Part shown: positions 1,850 to 14,068 of the stretch, one piece after another
How the letters are laid out: every line of letters begins with the position of its first letter
How positions within the stretch are numbered: the first letter of the stretch is position 1
IMG/VR virus record: IMGVR_UViG_3300046007_009988
Span: 1-31,770 of that record
Direction: 5' to 3' (one strand)
Length of the DNA stretch: 31,770 bases
Origin: a virus
Made by a program: the position numbers and the translations under genes
The notes under the pieces: generated by a model
The model's input: the letters and a program-made list of their open reading frames with translations, nothing else
Databases searched by the model: none
Told to the model about the DNA's origin: nothing

Positions 1850-2209
1850 TCACTCGGGCCTGCCGTGCCACTTGCTGTCCCGTTCCTCGTCGGTCCACCT
1901 GGCCTGGATCTCGGCCGTCAGGGCCCCGTAGATCTCCTCCGGGGTCGGATCGGACGGCTGGATCCTGGGGCGGCCCGGGCGACCTCGGCCCGGCCTGGGC
2001 AGGTCCGCGAGCTGGTCGGCGAGCCGCTGGCGGATCAGGCCGACGCTGACGCCGGCGGCGCGGGCCGCCTGGTCGCGGGTCGCCCCCGACCTCCAGGCCG
2101 CCCGCACGGCCCGCTCCTGCTCGCGCGTCAGGAGCGTCTTCGTGCAGCCACGGAGGCGGCCATTCCTCGATCGTGCGACCTGGAGCCTGGCCAGCCTGGA
2201 ACGGCTCAC
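1850..2209 (-). CDS. Helix-turn-helix DNA-binding protein (phage, rusA-linked)
   Basis: A 119-residue basic protein. A GTG start overlaps the rusA stop (GTGA). Residues about 35-70 ([14 protein letters not shown], then [19 protein letters not shown]) read as a resolvase/sigma-type helix-turn-helix. A Pro/Arg-rich linker ([15 protein letters not shown]) leads to a C-terminal segment ([21 protein letters not shown]) of a kind I recall as recurring in planctomycete phage proteins. Its place after rusA and before the fibre genes suggests a late-gene regulator or small DNA-packaging partner, but function is not established. Confidence 0.7.
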
Positions 2210-2658
2210 GAGTCCGGCCTCCGGATCGTGACGACGAGCCGCGCGTTCTCCCCAGGCTCGGCGAACCGCTTCCGGCCGCCATGAGCGACGACCTGGGCGT
2301 CGTCGAGCCACACGCCGGCCCCGGCCGTCACCGCGTCCCAGACCGCCTTCTCCAGGTTGTCGAGGTCGCCGCAGTTCCTGCCCGGGAACGCCGGAGCGGT
2401 CTTCCGCAGACTGCCATCGGCGGCCCGGTGCGATGCGGCGCGGCCGAACACGGCCTCGAACGAGACCTCGTGCGGGCCGGCCGAGATCTCCCAGCCGGCC
2501 CGGCGAGCTCGAGCAGCTGCTGCCAGGGCGATCGCCTGCTTGTAGGCCTTCAGACCGCGCCCGTCCGGCGTGTACATCCGCCCGCCGCGCGTGGCCCGGG
2601 CCCGCGGCTGCGGCAGCGGGTCGCCAGGAATCTCGAACGTGATCGAGGTCGCATCCAT
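2206..2658 (-). CDS. rusA: RusA-family Holliday junction resolvase
   Basis: A 150-residue endodeoxyribonuclease of the RusA family. It would cleave Holliday junctions and branched DNA during replication or recombination before packaging. The N-terminus has the family pattern FEIPGDPLPQPRARATRGG with MYTPDGRGLKAYK. The core has the diagnostic acidic cluster: Asp98 and Asp100 in GDLDNL, and Asp119/Asp120 in WLDDAQVV, followed by KRFAEPGENARLVVTI. These match the catalytic aspartates of RusA. An ATG at 2658 is chosen because the family's first strand (ITFEIPG) follows directly. A GTG four codons upstream is possible. The cassette array lies just upstream. Confidence 0.92.
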   Translation of the reverse strand: MDATSITFEIPGDPLPQPRARATRGGRMYTPDGRGLKAYKQAIALAAAARARRAGWEISAGPHEVSFEAVFGRAASHRAADGSLRKTAPAFPGRNCGDLDNLEKAVWDAVTAGAGVWLDDAQVVAHGGRKRFAEPGENARLVVTIRRPDS

Positions 2659-2810
2659 GCGACCCGTCACGGTATCGGGACCAGCGGGTGAATCCAGCGA
2701 GCATGGTTGGCCGTTTATCCATGCCTGGTAACAGCGGCAGTCTGCGCCTCACGGCCGCGCCGCGCGAATCGCCGGGACGTTATCCGACTTGGCGGCATTT
2801 ACGCTGGTCT

Positions 2811-2838
2811 GTTGAATCACTGGTTATGCCAGTTCAAC
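2811..2838. other. Inverted repeat at the left end of the cassette array
   Basis: The arms GTTGAA (2811-2816) and TTCAAC (2833-2838) enclose a second pairing pair (CTGG / CCAG), forming a bulged hairpin over the last codon and stop of the neighbouring small gene. It marks where the cassette-like region stops and phage sequence resumes. It could be a weak terminator, though it has no T-run, or a degenerate recombination site. From here to the rusA start (2659-2810) I see no convincing gene. Confidence 0.4.
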
Positions 2839-3055
2839 GAATCGCCGTGTAGCCAGTTCCGCCCGTGTAGCCCGATCCGCGAGTCCGCCTGCGCTTAGTC
2901 ACGGTTTCCTGCGACTTATCGCGTACAGCCAGTCGAACGGATCGCTCGTAGCAATCGCGGCACAGACCATGATTTACAGCCAGCCCAGTAGTCGAAATGC
3001 TGTATTCAATCGGTGACATTTGGCAGTCGCGGCAGAATCGCCTGTCCTTGGCCAT
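2834..3055 (-). CDS. Small zinc-ribbon-like protein, cassette ORF 4
   Basis: A 73-residue protein with two CxxC pairs, CRDC at residues 8-11 and CRDC at 32-35, spaced as in a four-Cys zinc ribbon. A basic, Gly-rich tail follows (KRRRTRGSGYTGGTGYTAIR). No family is recognised. The ATG follows the GTTATGC box of repeat A by a few bases, and the TGA is part of TGAAC, as in the other genes of this array. Base composition is visibly less GC-rich than the flanking phage genes. There is no Shine-Dalgarno sequence. It may be a DNA- or RNA-binding or host-interaction protein, but this is unknown. Confidence 0.6.
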   Translation of the reverse strand: MAKDRRFCRDCQMSPIEYSISTTGLAVNHGLCRDCYERSVRLAVRDKSQETVTKRRRTRGSGYTGGTGYTAIR

Positions 3056-3061
3056 AGCGGC

Positions 3062-3148
3062 ATAACCACGCGATGCAGCGGACCCGCGATGCCGTCTGCC
3101 GGAATGGTAAGTCAGCGGTCGCGGGCCGCTGATCGCTAGCGTTCTGCC
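3062..3148. repeat. attC-like element A
   Basis: This imperfect palindrome separates cassette ORFs 3 and 4. The plus strand shows AAC (3064-3066), 7 nt, then TGCAGCGGAC, an inner stem (CCCGCGA / TCGCGGG), a loop containing ATGGTAAGT, then GGCCGCTGATCGC, and GTT at 3141-3143. The outer arms GCGAT-CAGCGG and CCGCTG-ATCGC pair fully apart from one unpaired G in the left arm. The 6 + 10 nt spacing before GTT is identical in all four elements. The TAG stop of the adjacent gene (3148-3150) lies at the edge of the GTT/AAC box. Confidence 0.72.
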
Positions 3149-3555
3149 TACTCGTCAGTCTTCATTCGCCGCCGCCTGTGCTGGATGGCGCTGATGCTGC
3201 GCCCAAGCAACGCCGACAACTCCCTGTCAGTCCCGGTATGAGTCACAAGCAACTCGGTTTCTTTTGCCGTCCATCTCGTTTGCCGTTGGCTTGCGTTTTC
3301 CCAGCCAGCGTAGTACCGGCCCTTGTCTTTGTGCCGACGCTCTGACCGATAATTGGAAACAACGTCGCGCGGTATTTTCCGCTTCTTCTCTGGATGCCGT
3401 TCCATGTATCGCCGCCATGCCGCTCGCGTGCGATCGCGGTTCAGTCTGTTCCATTCCTTTCGGTACTCCAGCCCAGTCAGCCCGACCGGCTTGCGAGTCT
3501 CCCGCATGGCAGAACCAACGGATGCAGCGGACAGCGTGGCATCGTCTTTAGGCAT
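3148..3555 (-). CDS. Myb/SANT-like HTH protein, cassette ORF 3
   Basis: A 135-residue highly basic protein. Its C-terminal part (RWTAKETELLVTHTGTDREL, then SALLGRSISAIQHRRRRM) is a Myb/SANT-like three-helix DNA-binding motif. Upstream is an Arg/Lys-rich region (EYRKEWNRLNRDRTRAAWRR, then ERHPEKKRKIP) reminiscent of HNH- or homing-nuclease-associated proteins, though no nuclease residues are visible. The ATG at 3555 has a fair ribosome site (AAAGGA, 6 nt spacing) but lies inside the loop of repeat B, so the first 16 residues are encoded by the repeat arm. A second ATG at 3507 follows the GTTCTGCC box directly and may be the cassette's own start. Confidence 0.68.
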   Translation of the reverse strand: MPKDDATLSAASVGSAMRETRKPVGLTGLEYRKEWNRLNRDRTRAAWRRYMERHPEKKRKIPRDVVSNYRSERRHKDKGRYYAGWENASQRQTRWTAKETELLVTHTGTDRELSALLGRSISAIQHRRRRMKTDE

Positions 3556-3598
3556 GGTGAGTCCTTTCATCGCTGCCGCTGATCCTGCGTGTTCTACG
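3511..3598. repeat. attC-like element B
   Basis: Same architecture as element A. AAC (3513-3515), 7 nt, TGCAGCGGAC, an inner stem ACAGCG / CGCTG, a loop with ATGGTGAGT, then GCCGCTGATCC, and GTT at 3591-3593. The outer stem here is CGGAT / ATCCTG rather than GCGAT / ATCGC, so both arms changed together. One unpaired G sits at the same place in the left arm. The TAG of the upstream gene is within TAGAAC on the minus strand. Confidence 0.72.
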
Positions 3599-3599
3599 A

Positions 3600-3841
3600 G
3601 TTGTCCCAGTCCAACATCTTCGCCCCGCTTGAAAGCCTCTCCGCGAAAGTCTGTCGCCGCTCGATGCCGGTCGCCGTCCGCTCTGGCCGCGGCGTGCAAG
3701 TGTGCTTCTCGCCGCAGTAAAAGACCCGCCCGCAGGCGATGCAGGAATGGCCGCCGCACGGCTCGTTTTCTTTGTATCCACGGATGCACGTAGAACCACG
3801 CGATGCAGACGGACCCGCGAGAGCGTCGGTAGGTTTGTTCA
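3600..3841 (-). CDS. Cys-rich zinc-finger-like protein, cassette ORF 2
   Basis: An 80-residue ORF whose central part (CGGHSCIACGRVFYCGEKHT) has closely spaced Cys/His residues (C..C.....C.....C) typical of a small metal-binding knuckle. The only in-frame ATG (3841) lies in the loop of repeat C, without a Shine-Dalgarno sequence. Residues 1-22 are therefore translated from the repeat arm, and no ATG, GTG or TTG follows the recombination box in frame. The stop is the TAG of TAGAAC in repeat B. Function is unknown. The frame is supported by the Cys pattern and by its fit between two repeats. Confidence 0.5.
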
Positions 3842-3880
3842 TGGTCGTAGGTCGCGGGCCGCTGATCGCTGGCGTTATCC
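3791..3880. repeat. attC-like element C
   Basis: AAC (3794-3796), 7 nt, TGCAGACGGAC with one extra A compared with A and B, an inner stem CCCGCGA / TCGCGGG, a long loop containing ATGGTCGT, then GCCGCTGATCGC, and GTT at 3874-3876. Besides the conserved unpaired G, the inserted A gives a second bulge. The TAA of the GIY-YIG-like gene is part of GATAAC at the right box, on the minus strand. Confidence 0.7.
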
Positions 3881-4258
3881 AGTCCGAATCCATTCCCCGT
3901 CGATGTGCAGGTGGCGACACGCCACGAGCATGTCGGCCTCGCATCTTTCGGCCACCGGACGCCTCGCCATTCGGCACCTCCGCAGAATCCGCCACGATGC
4001 AATCGGGAACGTCTTGGCGAAGTCCTCCATCCGCTTCTCGGCGTCTTGCGAAATGCCGATCTTCCAGTACGTCCGCTCGCCGCAGGTCGCCTCGATCCAA
4101 TACACGTCGCACCCGAGCCGATCGCGAGTGGCCGTCGCCCGGCTCGCAACGTATGCGTCCCAGCAAGCCTCCGGCGTTCCCAGCCATTCGGCTTGGTTCT
4201 CCTCGACGCGGATGCCAGCGTCGAGAGCCGCAAACGCAAACTGTGATCGTGTGCTCAT
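3875..4258 (-). CDS. GIY-YIG / T5orf172-like nuclease domain protein, cassette ORF 1
   Basis: A 127-residue protein. Residues 50-110 (DVYWIEAT, RTYWKIGISQDAEKRMEDF, then FPIASWRILRRCRM) match the shape of the T5orf172 branch of GIY-YIG nucleases. An aromatic strand, a YWKIGIS strand, a conserved Arg in KR and a following Pro-Trp strand are all visible. A Cys/His-rich end (RCEADMLVACRHLHIDGEWI) supplies a Glu that could bind metal. If active it would nick or cut DNA, and proteins of this type occur in mobile DNA. Catalytic competence is not certain. The ATG follows the GTTATCCA box of repeat D directly, and the stop falls in TAAC of repeat C, so the gene fills the cassette exactly. Confidence 0.65.
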   Translation of the reverse strand: MSTRSQFAFAALDAGIRVEENQAEWLGTPEACWDAYVASRATATRDRLGCDVYWIEATCGERTYWKIGISQDAEKRMEDFAKTFPIASWRILRRCRMARRPVAERCEADMLVACRHLHIDGEWIRTG

Positions 4259-4260
4259 TG

Positions 4261-4316
4261 GATAACCAGCGGATGAAGCGGACGGCGGGGCCGCCGCTTA
4301 TCCTGCGTGTTCTCAG
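4261..4316. repeat. attC-like element D (shortest)
   Basis: A compact element of about 55 bp. AAC (4264-4266), 7 nt, TGAAGCGGAC, a short inner stem GGC / GCC, then GCCGCTTATCC, and GTT at 4309-4311. Relative to A-C, the arm CAGCGG/CCGCTG has become AAGCGG/CCGCTT, a compensatory change that keeps the stem. The unpaired G is retained. Its length and layout resemble the classic 59-base element. The minus-strand box TGAGAAC contains the stop of the phage-side membrane protein gene, so this is the junction between phage operon and array. Confidence 0.72.
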
Positions 4317-4480
4317 GCCTCGTCCTCCGGCGGCTTGGCCTTGCCCTGGGCGACGAGCTCGACGTAGGCCCGCAGGATCCGCACGTTCTTCCAGGCCGTG
4401 TACTCGGCCAGCACCGCCCGCACCGTCAGGAACACCAGCATCCCGACGCAGGCGACGAGTAGCTTCGCTTCGATGGTCAT
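4313..4480 (-). CDS. Small single-pass membrane protein
   Basis: A 55-residue protein whose ATG overlaps the replication gene stop (ATGA). Residues 5-25 (AKLLVACVGMLVFLTVRAVL) form one transmembrane helix, followed by an amphipathic, charged tail (WKNVRILRAYVELVAQGKAK, ending PPEDEA). It is the last phage-coupled gene before the cassette-like array, and its TGA is embedded in the box of repeat D. Function is unknown. Possible roles are membrane anchoring of replication or superinfection interference. Confidence 0.65.
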   Translation of the reverse strand: MTIEAKLLVACVGMLVFLTVRAVLAEYTAWKNVRILRAYVELVAQGKAKPPEDEA

Positions 4481-5349
4481 GCGACCTCCTCCCGGAACTT
4501 CGCCGCGAGCGCGGCCTTCGTGGCCTCGAACCTGGCAGCGTCCTCGCCGCTCCAAGCCTGCGGCGGCGGTCGGTCGTCCAGGCCGCGCGGGCCAGACGAT
4601 GGCGACAGCCTCCGCGGGTCGTCGAACTCCTGCTCGAGCACCTTCGCCGTGAACCGCCGCCCGGCCTTCGCGCCACAGAACTGGCCGAGCGGCACCGGGC
4701 TCGTGAAGAACCGGCAGCCCGGCAGCCGGTCGATCGCCTTCAGGGCCTCCTGGAGCCAGCCAGGCTCGGCGAGCCGCTCCAGGGCTGCCGCCGGCAGGCC
4801 ATCGGCCCCGTAGGGCTTCACGCGGGCAGGGTGGGCCCGTGCGGCGGCGTTCCAGGCCGCCCGCAGGGTCTCCCCGTCCGCGGACACGTCTGGAGGTGTA
4901 GGAGGAGAAACTGTCCTCTCCTCTCCTCTAGTGCGCTTTTGCTGCGCTTGAGCGCACTCGTCGGGTGCGCTTTTGCTGCGCCTCGGCGCACCATTTGCGC
5001 ACGCCTGCCGTGCCCGGCCTGCCCTCTCGAGGTGCAGGGCGCGGGACTTGGCAGACTGGGAAAACCTGCGACCCCACCCGGGGATCTCGGCCGTCCCGTC
5101 CTGGGCGAACCGGATCCAGCCGACGGTCTCGACCGCCTGCCAGAAGTCCGGGTCGCCACCGCACGTCCGAGCCAGCCGTCCAGGCGTGGTCCTGATCGTG
5201 CCGTCGTCGCTGTTCAAGCTCGCCCACCCCCACAGCTTCCAGAGGCGGTAGCAGACGACCTCGACCCGCTCGCCGGTGATGTCGATCAGCTCCTGGACCT
5301 CGGGCTTCTGGTCGAGGGCGATGTCGATGGGGAGCCATTCACCGGCCAT
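4477..5349 (-). CDS. Phage replication initiator / replisome organiser-like protein
   Basis: A 290-residue protein. The N-terminal ~100 residues (EWLPIDIALDQKPEVQELID, EVVCYRLWKLWGWAS, TPGRLARTCGG) match the winged-helix start of phage replication proteins of the DnaD/O-like type, which bind the origin and load the helicase. A charged Arg/Lys/Gln linker (about 105-150) carries repeated DNA motifs. The C-terminal part (ETLRAAWNAAARAHPARVK, LQEALKAIDRLPGCRFF, then GRRFTAKVLEQEF) is the usual DnaD-like tail. GGAGG lies 7 nt upstream of the ATG. The gene overlaps the preceding winged-helix gene by 11 nt. Partner helicase and helicase loader genes are not seen in the window. Confidence 0.75.
   Translation of the reverse strand: MAGEWLPIDIALDQKPEVQELIDITGERVEVVCYRLWKLWGWASLNSDDGTIRTTPGRLARTCGGDPDFWQAVETVGWIRFAQDGTAEIPGWGRRFSQSAKSRALHLERAGRARQACANGAPRRSKSAPDECAQAQQKRTRGEERTVSPPTPPDVSADGETLRAAWNAAARAHPARVKPYGADGLPAAALERLAEPGWLQEALKAIDRLPGCRFFTSPVPLGQFCGAKAGRRFTAKVLEQEFDDPRRLSPSSGPRGLDDRPPPQAWSGEDAARFEATKAALAAKFREEVA
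4931..5002. repeat. Iteron-like direct and inverted repeats, candidate replication origin
   Basis: A 17-bp direct repeat GTGCGCTTTTGCTGCGC occurs exactly at 4931-4947 and 4965-4981, 34 bp apart. Each copy is followed by its inverse hexamer GCGCAC (4952-4957 and 4986-4991), with a further GCGCAC at 4997-5002. The cluster lies in the linker-coding part of the replication gene, as the lambda origin lies inside gene O. The 34-bp period is not a multiple of three, so the two copies encode different residues and the repetition is a DNA-level feature. Origin function is inferred. Confidence 0.55.
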
Positions 5350-10742: not shown

Positions 10743-11435
10743 TTACCGGGGCGGATGGACATCCAGCCGCAGCGGCCGCCAGCGGCTCCTGAAGGCCGCC
10801 CAGGCCGCCAGCCGCTCGGCCTCGACGCGGCCGTTCGTCCCGCTCCACTCGTGCCGGAGGCCGTACTGGCCGACCCAGCCCCCGAGCCCCCGGGCCAAGC
10901 ACTGGAGCGAGAACTCGCTGTCGTCCAGCCAGTAGGGGCCGTACTCGGGCCGCTGGGCCCAGGTGTCGACCTCGCGGCGCCTGAACAGCTGGGCGAACCC
11001 GCAGACGATCGGCACCGGGCCGACGTGGGCCATGGGGGCCTCGACCGTCCACGACCAATCCGGCCGGACCCAGCCGCCGTGCTCGCCGACGACGCCGATG
11101 CCGGGCCGCGCGAGGTCTTCGAGCATCCGGTCGAGGGCCGACGGGTCCAGCACCTCGACATCGGAGTCGAGCGAGAGGACGAGCTCGCCCCGGGCCCGCC
11201 TCCAGATCACGTTCCGCCCCCCGCCGCAGCCCAGGTTCTCGGCGGCGCGGATGACCTCGAGCTTCGGCGACCGGCCGGCCAGGCCGTCGAGCTCCTGGAG
11301 CGTGCCGTCGGTGGACGCATTGTCGAGGACGATCCACTCGCCCACGTCGGCCCGCTCGGCCAGCCGCGCCACCGTCGGCAGGCAGCGGGCGACCTGGGCG
11401 CGGTTGTTGTGGCTGAGTTGGACGATCGAGATCAC
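10743..11435 (-). CDS. Family-2 glycosyltransferase
   Basis: A 230-residue GT-A fold glycosyltransferase without membrane segments. The N-terminus (ISIVQLSHNN) is the first strand. DNASTDGT (residues 38-45) is the nucleotide-binding motif, and LSLDSDVEVL holds the DXD-like metal/sugar-nucleotide site at 90-92. WLDDSEFSLQ and the adjacent acidic residues mark the acceptor side. GTG starts in the TGA of the upstream glycosyltransferase (GTGA), so they are translationally coupled. It would transfer a sugar to a virion or host surface glycan, and the acceptor is unknown. It is last in the leftward structural operon, next to int, a typical lysogenic-conversion position. Confidence 0.85.
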   Translation of the reverse strand: MISIVQLSHNNRAQVARCLPTVARLAERADVGEWIVLDNASTDGTLQELDGLAGRSPKLEVIRAAENLGCGGGRNVIWRRARGELVLSLDSDVEVLDPSALDRMLEDLARPGIGVVGEHGGWVRPDWSWTVEAPMAHVGPVPIVCGFAQLFRRREVDTWAQRPEYGPYWLDDSEFSLQCLARGLGGWVGQYGLRHEWSGTNGRVEAERLAAWAAFRSRWRPLRLDVHPPR

Positions 11436-12163
11436 AGGACACCCAGCTCGCGGAGGCGGCTGCCGATCTCGCTCTGCCGCGAGATGTTCCCGGGCCGCAT
11501 CTTCGACAGCCATGGCCAGCAGATCGACTCCCACAGGTGGACGGAGTAGCTGTCCGCGAGCAGCGGCTTTGTCCGGCGGTGATTCGGCACCTTGAACACG
11601 GTCCGCAGTTTCCCCCACAGCGGCGCGAAAAAGACCGTGGGCGGGTAGATCGTGACGAGGTCGGGACGACCGGCTGCGAGCCGGAGCGGCAGCCGGACGG
11701 AATGTTCGTCCCAGTGCTCGTCGCGGCCCGCGGACCGGAACGAGCGGTATTCGGCCAGCCACAGTTCCGCGAACCGCGCACCGCGGTCGCCGCCCATGGT
11801 CGCGTTGCAAAGCCCGTAGTCGTCGCCCTGCCGGCCCATCCACCAGCCGCCGTGTTCGAGATTCGCGAACGGCCGCAGGCACCACACGTCGGAGTCGACA
11901 TACGCCCCGCCGTGCTCGAGCAGCACCTGGAGGCGGACGACGTCGGCCCGGTGGGCCGGGTGGACGAGTGGGCGGCCGAAGATCTCGCGCGGGGCCTCGA
12001 TTGGGCAGAGGGTAAGATGCGGCCGGCTCGCGCGCCACCACTGGCCATCAGGCTCGTGCTCGTACCAGAACAGGAGCTCGGCCCCCGGGTTCGCCGCGAC
12101 CGCCGAGAGGACGCTCAGATGGTGAAACCAGCTCCAGGGCTTGCCTCCGAAGTCGGGGGCCAT
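11432..12163 (-). CDS. Glycosyltransferase with DXD motif (Gly_transf_sug / GT32-like)
   Basis: A protein of about 243 residues. From the chosen ATG it shows FGGKPWSWFHHLSVLSA, then FWYEHEPDGQWW, then ADVVRLQVLLEHGGAYVDSD with the DSD (90-92) of the sugar-nucleotide site. The family usually begins a few residues earlier with IHYVFG, which is encoded just upstream in the same frame without a standard start codon, so the true start is uncertain. Its 5' end overlaps the oppositely oriented methyltransferase. The probable activity is addition of a hexose or similar sugar to a surface glycan. Confidence 0.8.
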   Translation of the reverse strand: MAPDFGGKPWSWFHHLSVLSAVAANPGAELLFWYEHEPDGQWWRASRPHLTLCPIEAPREIFGRPLVHPAHRADVVRLQVLLEHGGAYVDSDVWCLRPFANLEHGGWWMGRQGDDYGLCNATMGGDRGARFAELWLAEYRSFRSAGRDEHWDEHSVRLPLRLAAGRPDLVTIYPPTVFFAPLWGKLRTVFKVPNHRRTKPLLADSYSVHLWESICWPWLSKMRPGNISRQSEIGSRLRELGVL

Positions 12164-12781
12164 GCCGAAGACGTAGTGGATGCGGCCGCGGTCTTCTCGG
12201 CGATCTACGCTGGCGACCGCTGGGCCGGCGGCTCCGGGCCCGGCAGCCGGCCGGGGTTTTGCCGGCCGCTCGTCCGCTGGCTGACGAGGTACATCCGCGA
12301 GGCCGGCGTCCGCTCGATGACCGACCTCGGGTGCGGGGACTTTCAGTGGATGCCGGCCGTGCTCGCGGCGACCGGCGTCTGCTACACGGGACTCGACGTG
12401 TACGAGCCGCTCCTCGCGCGGCATCGCGCGCAGTTCCCCCAGCACCGCTTCCAGGAGCTCGACGTGTCGGTCGCAGATCCGGGCCAGATCCCGGAGGCCG
12501 ACCTGTATCTCGCGAAAGACGTCCTCCAGCACTGGCCCGACCGCACGATCACGGCGTTCCTCTCGAGGTTCTTCGCGGCCCGGCCGGCGGCCCACTTGCT
12601 CGTCGCCAACTGCACCGGGCAGACTGCCGACGTTCGCGTCCTGGATGATCAGTGGCGATTCGCCCCGCTCGATGGAGCCCGGCCGCCGCTGGCCGCCTTC
12701 GGGCCCGAGCTCGTCTTTTCGTGGGGCGGGAAGCATGTTTACCGGCTCACCACGAGCGGGCTTTGTGGGTCTTCTGCGTGA
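12119..12781 (+). CDS. Class I SAM-dependent methyltransferase, antisense within the glycan cluster
   Basis: A 220-residue Rossmann methyltransferase. FSAIYAGDRWAGGSGPGSRP precedes motif I, MTDLGCGDFQW (Asp69-Asp74). The GLDVYEPLL strand then gives the acidic ribose-binding Asp, and ADLYLAKDVLQHWPD is motif IV. The lead pattern 'IY..D.W.GGSGPGS' is a known signature of methyltransferases in sugar gene clusters. An SD-like GAGAGG lies 8 nt before the ATG. It is on the plus strand while both flanking glycosyltransferase genes are on the minus strand. It overlaps the 5' end of one (by about 45 nt) and the 3' end of the other (35 nt). It probably methylates a sugar or acyl acceptor. Confidence 0.85.
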   Translation: MVKPAPGLASEVGGHAEDVVDAAAVFSAIYAGDRWAGGSGPGSRPGFCRPLVRWLTRYIREAGVRSMTDLGCGDFQWMPAVLAATGVCYTGLDVYEPLLARHRAQFPQHRFQELDVSVADPGQIPEADLYLAKDVLQHWPDRTITAFLSRFFAARPAAHLLVANCTGQTADVRVLDDQWRFAPLDGARPPLAAFGPELVFSWGGKHVYRLTTSGLCGSSA

Positions 12782-13367
12782 TGTCGCTCAGGGCCTCGGC
12801 CTGGCCGCAGAGCCACGGCCGGACGGCGTAGACGCGGATTCCGCCGGCCCTGTGCAGGGCCCCGAACCGGTGGTCGACGTGGTGCCGGCCGGGCCACGGC
12901 CGCGGGGCGATCCAGTCCCGGAGCTTCTCGATCGCCGGCCGGCCTATCACGCCGTAGGCGTGGGTCCGGTTCACGTTCCGCCCGCGGACCAGGTCGTCGC
13001 GGCCCGGGATCGGCTCGGGCTTGGCCAGGTGCTGGCCGCCGAGGTAGAGCTGCTCGCAGTCGGCCGGCACCTCGAGGCCCGACAGGCGAGCCGCGAAGTC
13101 CGGGACAAACGAGACGTCGTCCTCGAGCACCAGGATCCGCTCGAAGCCGGCCGCCGCGGCCGCCGCCAGGATCGAGTGATGCGACCGGGCGCAGCCCCAC
13201 GCGCCGGGGACGCTCTTCCACCAGGCCGGGGCGCGGTCCTGGAGGCCGTCCACGGCCGCGAAGACGTGCGGGTGGGGCAGGGGCCAGTCCGCCGGCAGGC
13301 GGCTCCAGAAGCCCTGGAGACGCTCCGGACGCCGCTCGAGCGAGATCACGACGACAGCGTCGAACAT
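12747..13367 (-). CDS. LPS-type glycosyltransferase family 25
   Basis: A 206-residue protein with the family-25 pattern. The strand FDAVVVISLERRPERLQGF leads, HVFAAVDG follows, then the conserved WGCARSHHSIL helix, and ILVLEDDVSFVPDF with the acidic EDD (82-84) for metal and UDP-sugar binding. AVRPWLCGQ lies near the end. GT25 enzymes usually add galactose or similar to lipo-oligosaccharide. Its start overlaps the end of the dNMP kinase gene by 22 nt. Together with the next two transferases it suggests surface-glycan modification of virion or lysogen. The donor is not predictable. Confidence 0.83.
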   Translation of the reverse strand: MFDAVVVISLERRPERLQGFWSRLPADWPLPHPHVFAAVDGLQDRAPAWWKSVPGAWGCARSHHSILAAAAAAGFERILVLEDDVSFVPDFAARLSGLEVPADCEQLYLGGQHLAKPEPIPGRDDLVRGRNVNRTHAYGVIGRPAIEKLRDWIAPRPWPGRHHVDHRFGALHRAGGIRVYAVRPWLCGQAEALSDITQKTHKARSW

Positions 13368-14068
13368 CGGCGGCACTCCGGCGGAGCGGCCCTGGCAGTG
13401 GCCACGGCGAGCCGGAGGTCGTCGAGGCTGCCGTCGTTGTCGATCCGGCGGTCGACGAGCTCGGCCGGTAGGCCGGCTTCGCTCGAGTGGCCTGCCACCG
13501 CCGGCAGCCCGGGCCGGCGAACCTCCCAGACCTCGCCGCCCAGCCGCTCCCGGATCCATTCGGCCTCGTTCGGGAACCGGACGTCGGCGACGACGACGAC
13601 CTCGGCGCCGGCCCGGGCGAGCTTGAGGATCCGCTCGTGGGCGAGCTTCAGCCACAGGTGACGGTCGACCAGGTCGCGGCCCCATTCCGTCCCCAGCGTC
13701 TGGAGCAGCTGCCGCGGGCTCTTGCCGAGCGCCGGGATCGCCAGCTCCTTGAGCCGCCGGTCCCGCAGCTGGGCCTCGGGCACGCCGAGCATCGCGGCGA
13801 TCGCGGCGTAGATCGGGTCGGCGAGCTGCACGACCACGGCCCCGGGGATCAGGTCGGCGACCGTGTTCTTCCCGGCGCCGGCCCGGCCCGTGATGCCGAT
13901 CACCGCTGGCGTTTCGCCGGCTTCCATGCCTCTGGTCTCCCTGAGCTCGCGAATCATCCACAGAGCGAACGAGGCTAGCCGGCCGCTCGCACCAGTCCAG
14001 CAGTTGGCCGGGCCCAGTCTGCGGACCAGCTGCTCCGCGTCGTCGAGCAGCGCGGGCGACATCCTCAC
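13346..14068 (-). CDS. Deoxynucleoside monophosphate kinase-like protein
   Basis: A 240-residue P-loop protein. GITGRAGAGKNT (P-loop, residues 58-69) is followed by QLADPIYAAIAAMLGVPEAQ, then LLQTLGTEWGRDLVDRHLW and VVVADVRFPNEAEWIR. The order matches phage dNMP kinases of the T4 gp1 type, which phosphorylate dNMPs to dNDPs for phage DNA synthesis. The first 47 residues (about 1-47, helical) are an N-terminal extension not usual for the family. A GTG start overlaps the stop of the phosphoesterase gene (GTGA). It is placed at the tail-module end rather than in the replication region, which is a little odd. Confidence 0.82.
   Translation of the reverse strand: MRMSPALLDDAEQLVRRLGPANCWTGASGRLASFALWMIRELRETRGMEAGETPAVIGITGRAGAGKNTVADLIPGAVVVQLADPIYAAIAAMLGVPEAQLRDRRLKELAIPALGKSPRQLLQTLGTEWGRDLVDRHLWLKLAHERILKLARAGAEVVVVADVRFPNEAEWIRERLGGEVWEVRRPGLPAVAGHSSEAGLPAELVDRRIDNDGSLDDLRLAVATARAAPPECRRCSTLSS

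Follow-up and report, generated by a model that had tools for sequence, protein, structure and literature searches.

The window, as we call the whole 31,770-nt stretch of viral DNA analyzed here (IMG/VR record IMGVR_UViG_3300046007_009988), very probably carries a phage integron that lacks an integrase, in which a host integron integrase (IntI) acting in trans would serve an array of four cassettes drawn from a reversed cassette pool and read by a phage operon. An earlier note, made from the letters of this DNA alone, had pointed to an attC-like array at this locus. Its observation is real overall and its interpretation is partly supported, as set out below.

Four attC-type hairpins lie on the plus strand of the window, and their coordinates are given with the boxes included: E1 at 3059–3148 (R'' GGCATAAC, L'' CAGCGG, L' CCGCTG, R' GTTCTGCC), E2 at 3508–3598 (R'' GGCAGAAC, R' GTTCTACG), E3 at 3789–3881 (R'' CGTAGAAC, R' GTTATCCA), and E4, which has a short loop, at 4259–4316 (R'' TGGATAAC, R' GTTCTCAG). 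These are the four near-palindromes that the earlier note had assigned to the attC type, and all were recovered. On the plus strand each runs in the order AAC, spacer, arm ending in GAT, unpaired G, L'', loop, L', and GTT, with L'' arms such as CAGCGG or AAGCGG and L' arms complementary to them. The single unpaired G at a common place and the covariation of the stems, both described earlier, are seen in all four elements: the G sits on the AAC side between the outer arm and the L'' arm, and the stems differ from one hairpin to the next with compensating changes. A scanner for attC-shaped elements matched them on the plus strand alone, and the hairpins are not explained by chance, as 100 dinucleotide shuffles of the window averaged 0.19 matches with a maximum of 2. 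Run on 130 viral loci, the same scanner returned 255 matches vs 16 in the reversed sequence.

When E1–E4 are aligned with attC sites from class-1 integrons on plasmids, the order of parts and the bulge positions are the same (compare TC-AAGCGG-A-CCCGC of a class-1 site with TG-CAGCGG-A-CCCGC of E1), and the plus strand of the window can therefore be taken as the ordinary attC top strand. The L''/L' stem with its extrahelical base or bases on the L'' side is likewise present in the window sites. The R' box keeps the GTT core, which is followed in the window by the bases of GTTCTNN or GTTATNN and not those of GTTRRRY; the bases after GTT are mostly CT or AT in the viral contigs, and the bacterial arrays found here are similarly relaxed. 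A covariance model that we built from class-1 attC sites, with six sequences too small for significance, placed E1 at the top of the window with 11.9 bits (E = 0.53), while an Rfam scan and a tRNA search returned no match.

The two boxes that bound an integron cassette, one at its opening and one at its closing end, are reverse complements of each other. The window obeys this rule without exception, the left box GTTNNNNN being the exact reverse complement of the right box NNNNNAAC at 8/8 bases in 4/4 cassettes. This is the strongest signal in the locus and was absent from the earlier account. Over 136 viral intervals the mean box match is 4.11 of 5; in 1000 shuffles it never exceeds 2.71, and boxes of one and the same hairpin match at 2.53. 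As the boxes are read by complementarity, the left edge of the first cassette is set at 2823, and the elements are found to enclose single-gene cassettes, as had been proposed. Cassette 1 (2824–3141, 318 bp), whose boxes GTTATGCC (2823) and GGCATAAC (3059) are reverse complements at every base, holds a minus-strand gene (2834–3055) for a Cys-rich protein of 73 aa that has no family match. Cassette 2 (3142–3591, 450 bp; GTTCTGCC and GGCAGAAC, exact) holds a minus-strand gene for 135 aa (3148–3555) that starts in the E2 loop (MPKDDATLSAASVGS...), has an additional in-frame ATG at 3570, and gives a weak PHROG match to a D5-like transcriptional regulator. Cassette 3 (3592–3874, 283 bp; GTTCTACG and CGTAGAAC, exact) encodes on the minus strand an 82-aa protein with CxxC motifs and no family match (3594–3842), which starts in the E3 loop (MNKPTDALAGPSASRGS...). 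Cassette 4 (3875–4309, 435 bp; GTTATCCA and TGGATAAC, exact) encodes a T5orf172-like protein of 127 aa, below the Pfam cut-off, again on the minus strand (3875–4258). The genes of cassettes 1 and 4 start just past the box and not in the loop.

At the far end of the genes, box and stop codon often overlap, as they do in cassette 3 (TAG), in cassette 4 (TAA), and in a 55-aa minus-strand open reading frame (ORF) beyond E4 at the distal edge of the array (4313–4480, TGA), which is either a backbone gene or a decayed cassette. The run of minus-strand stops at the boxes that had been reported is thus real, except that its first member, the TGA of cassette 1 at 2834, is set 11 nt into the cassette. 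The flanks also bear out the description of a phage array between a replication gene and rusA: a gene for the Holliday junction resolvase RusA lies on the attI side (2206–2670, minus strand; Pfam RusA, 8.8e-18), and a gene for a replication initiation protein lies on the distal side (4477–5349, minus strand; phrog_2509, 1.4e-16). Elsewhere in the window, a minus-strand ORF at 550–1833 with long collagen-like GPA/GPT repeats is likely a tail or fibre protein, and several ORFs that look glycosyltransferase-like by eye, together with a methyltransferase-like ORF, occupy 10743–13961 on the plus strand.

The cassette genes of the window are all on the minus strand, antisense to their attC sites, and this arrangement recurs in the viral contigs, where the longest ORF is antisense to attC in 182/226 cassettes. 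Because sense and antisense ORF calls are noisy on GC-rich DNA, we give most weight to a test of polarity by Pfam families. In the viral contigs 20 families fall in antisense ORFs and 1 in sense ORFs, vs 0 and 48, respectively, in bacterial arrays with the same attC motif. The reversal is not an artefact of attC orientation, since the search for the bacterial loci used the same attC pattern. The one Pfam match among the viral sense ORFs is to a DegT/DnrJ aminotransferase; the 'sense' ORF near this match (L015:4731–5444) possibly belongs to no true cassette. In a typical cassette the attC comes after the gene and points the same way; this layout is found neither in the window nor in most viral cassettes. 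The attC sites are canonical, and the reversal lies in the genes and is systematic in the viral contigs. The suggestion of a divergent, mirror-image class of attC in the earlier note is accordingly set aside.

Many of the reversed genes share a further property, in that their attC appears to supply the start of translation. In 131 of the 182 antisense viral cassettes the ORF starts within the hairpin, and 112 of these 131 starts are in one common frame, in which the R box is read as Gly-Ser (GGT TCT). The loop contains a ribosome site with a start codon, and that frame stays open through the R box, in 124/206 unique viral attC sites vs 0/74 bacterial ones. The predicted proteins begin alike: 141 cassette proteins with unrelated bodies yield the consensus M...D....S.AS.GS.

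The rusA-side edge of the array is formed by a conserved sequence ending in CCGNANAAACACTG|GTT. This attI-like site spans 2773–2825 on the plus strand, with the crossover G|TT at 2823/2824 and the R box GTTATGCC at 2823–2830, and it is conserved at the array edge in dozens of contigs. A matrix made from 46 non-redundant phage sites, with the window excluded, scores 23.5 bits at 2823 and −3.6 at the next best place in the window; the best of 60 shuffled 4-kb sequences reached −0.8. Applied to IntI-linked bacterial loci, it picks out sites close to intI with scores of 29.4, 21.9, 17.5, 11.7, and 3.5, and the IntIs of loci L199, L200, L201, L203, and L204 form one clade (L202 was not placed). Most IntI loci drawn regardless of attC lack such a site, in Planctomycetota and Pseudomonadota alike, and the resemblance is therefore specific to one IntI clade and not to planctomycetes generally. 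A stricter attI pattern occurs in only 9 viral loci. Judged by its resemblance to these sites, the array edge appears to hold an attI.

Records with the attC pattern are common, amounting to at least 120 viral DNA stretches with up to eight matches per contig, and the array-edge pattern occurs in 49 viral stretches, some of them by chance. The viral loci were selected by the attC or attI pattern, and the records are mostly fragments. In many of these contigs rusA and a replication gene of the window type are near the array. In two contigs, L122 and L123, the flanking genes are the same and enclose no array; L127, the flanks of which are close to those of L123, has several different cassettes in that interval. 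At L127:1180–1260 the distal end of the array is apparently a partial attC joined straight to a backbone gene. A DNA similarity search against named phage genomes gave no match to the locus or to the tyrosine recombinase of the window, and a search for the host by way of the replication protein matched 3/392 Planctomycetota and 3/398 Pseudomonadota genomes.

Cassettes shared between contigs show where the exchange takes place. Among 39 cassette pairs common to different contigs, the left edge of homology falls exactly at G|TT in 16/39 and most right edges fall inside the first bases of the next box, while in 14/39 the homology runs on past at least one side, several of these pairs coming from near-identical contigs. 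Cassette 4 of the window, with its own attC and gene, has a counterpart in L055 at 94% identity (455 nt); the neighboring attC is different, and the identity breaks at G|TT. Precise gain or loss of cassettes at G|TT is found both in the 39 pairs and in this comparison. Relatives with different cassettes, for which the earlier note had proposed a search, do occur. The breakpoints fit recombination of the site-specific kind better than blocks being exchanged by homology, which they do not fit.

No integron integrase was found, in agreement with the earlier note: the window has no match to TIGR02249 at E 0.1, and none over the cut-off was seen in 50 related viral records, most of them fragments, so that an integrase could lie outside the records. 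A planctomycete IntI used as a query against the viral collection retrieved one distant relative. An intI adjoining attI, as in a complete integron, is absent from the window and from the 50 viral records. The window does encode a tyrosine recombinase of phage type (9766–10665, plus strand; PF00589, 4e-9), which is matched by Xer-type models and not by TIGR02249 at E 0.1, and which could be the phage's own lysogeny integrase. A host IntI acting in trans would be the simplest account of the missing enzyme.

Reversed cassettes also occur in bacterial contigs. Among the chromosomal genes of L144, a Planctomycetaceae MAG contig, lie intI and an attI-like site; the matrix score of the site is weak (−0.3), yet it is the best on the contig and stands beside intI. 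In the minus-strand array of this contig, the two attI-proximal cassettes (L144:113–491 and 487–821) are reversed, in the manner of the phage type. The first of these encodes DUF551 and has attC arms that match phage attC at ~96–98%, and the attC of a reversed L144 cassette shares ~96% identity with E4 of the window over 48 nt. On a Cyanobium sp. FGCU52 contig that may be cyanobacterial or a culture contaminant, which also has an intI fragment, a reversed cassette follows a canonical attC (L145:891–1213); it is 93% identical to a cassette of viral contig L056, with homology from G|TT onward. DUF551 is the commonest family of the phage cassettes (19 of 141 distinct proteins), and other cargo among these 141 includes several DNA methyltransferases (C5, N6/N4, Dam, and MT-A70), Mom, and HNH nucleases. 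Bacterial cassettes carry toxin-antitoxin genes and acetyltransferases; toxin-antitoxin families, frequent in the bacterial cassettes scanned, are absent from the Pfam matches of phage cassettes. The phage cargo suggests a role in shielding phage DNA from host restriction, and protection from restriction is also proposed by Qi et al. 2023 (PMC9892861) for the phages studied there.

We propose that the attI-like site, which sits between rusA and the array and is oriented against phage transcription, acts as the platform where strand-specific recombination at G|TT would add, remove, and swap cassettes, each of one gene and one attC. The catalyst is most likely a host IntI in trans, from the planctomycete clade with a phage-like attI, which would recombine the bottom strand of attC with the phage attI. 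The phage operon would be read toward attI, through the replication gene, then the array, and then rusA. Recombination leaves attC in a set direction with respect to attI, and with the operon read toward attI only cassettes with antisense genes would be expressed, presumably from the phage operon; selection for expression would favor reversed genes, and viral contigs would therefore come to hold a reversed cassette pool. A gene that starts beside its own attC would have to draw its start signal from inside or just past that attC. In these reversed cassettes the attC is at the 5' end of the gene, and its loop often holds the start codon with its ribosome site. The L''/R'' arm would be translated as an N-terminal leader ending in ...S-A-S-x-G-S. 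At the opposite end of the gene, part of the stop codon often comes from the R box.

With at least two attC sites (four here) and no integron integrase found, the locus does fall under the label of an orphan cluster (CALIN) used in the earlier note, and Qi et al. 2023 (PMC9892861) describe phage CALINs in which some attC sites were shown to work with IntI1. The label is incomplete, because the attI-like site at the rusA end makes the array more than a CALIN. An ordinary phage CALIN, in which bacterial cassettes had been caught by chance with no special polarity or platform, is thus unlikely: the edge site is conserved across contigs, the antisense polarity and the loop start signal are systematic and do not occur in bacterial arrays with the same motif, and the viral cargo of DUF551, DNA methyltransferases, and HNH nucleases differs from the toxin-antitoxin genes and acetyltransferases of bacteria.

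It is also quite improbable that the phage tyrosine recombinase moves the cassettes in a system that is merely integron-like. Its relatives do occur in 31/50 related viral records, where no IntI is found, but it resembles an ordinary phage integrase of the Xer type and has no match to the IntI model, and one relative is in the record of L123, whose interval between the replication gene and rusA has no array. Moreover, the attI-like site resembles sites beside bacterial intI, and the same reversed type of cassette is found in bacterial integrons. Intergenic RNA or terminator elements, with repeats spread by homologous recombination, might seem to suit hairpins that are intergenic, fold well, and overlap start and stop codons; such an origin is extremely improbable given the exact box complementarity of each cassette, the canonical asymmetry of attC, and an attI-like site that is not a hairpin repeat, and the G|TT breakpoints on both sides rule it out as a full account.

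Our preferred reading, an integrase-less phage integron served by a host enzyme, can be set against known systems. The phage CALINs of Qi et al. 2023 (PMC9892861) are alike in being integrase-less attC arrays with methyltransferase cargo; in the accessible part of that paper, cassettes are oriented in the bacterial manner or mixed and no start signal in the loop is described, whereas the arrays of the window and related contigs keep an attI-like site, have antisense genes and a loop start, and recur beside rusA. The sedentary chromosomal integrons of Planctomycetota have the same attC motif, a similar attI in one IntI clade, and, in L144, reversed cassettes of the phage type, but unlike the phage arrays they encode IntI and their genes are mostly sense to attC. 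The class 1 integron shares its attC layout and bulge positions with the phage sites, and the short ORF-11 of its attI1 provides a case in which a recombination site supplies the translation signals of the first cassette (PMC8876359); in the phage contigs, unlike this case, the attC of each cassette starts its own gene, in frame. A search of the open-access literature found no report of integrase-less phage arrays that bear attI and reversed cassettes.

Integrons are swappable gene arrays by which bacteria trade resistance genes. We give slightly better than even chances to an exchange economy spanning phages, in which attI-like sites are retained by many phages and their private pool of reversed cassettes, DNA-modification genes included, is traded through the integrase of host integrons, these integrons being the hub and the recombination site doubling as translation start and N-terminal tag. 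Integrons would then extend from occasional phage cargo to a standing exchange platform of phages that uses a host enzyme, and a recombination site that would also act as a start codon is described. Cassette polarity gains a testable cause, namely that whatever transcribes the array decides the strand of the genes, and backward cassettes in bacterial integrons, two cases of which are reported here, could be recognized as phage visitors.
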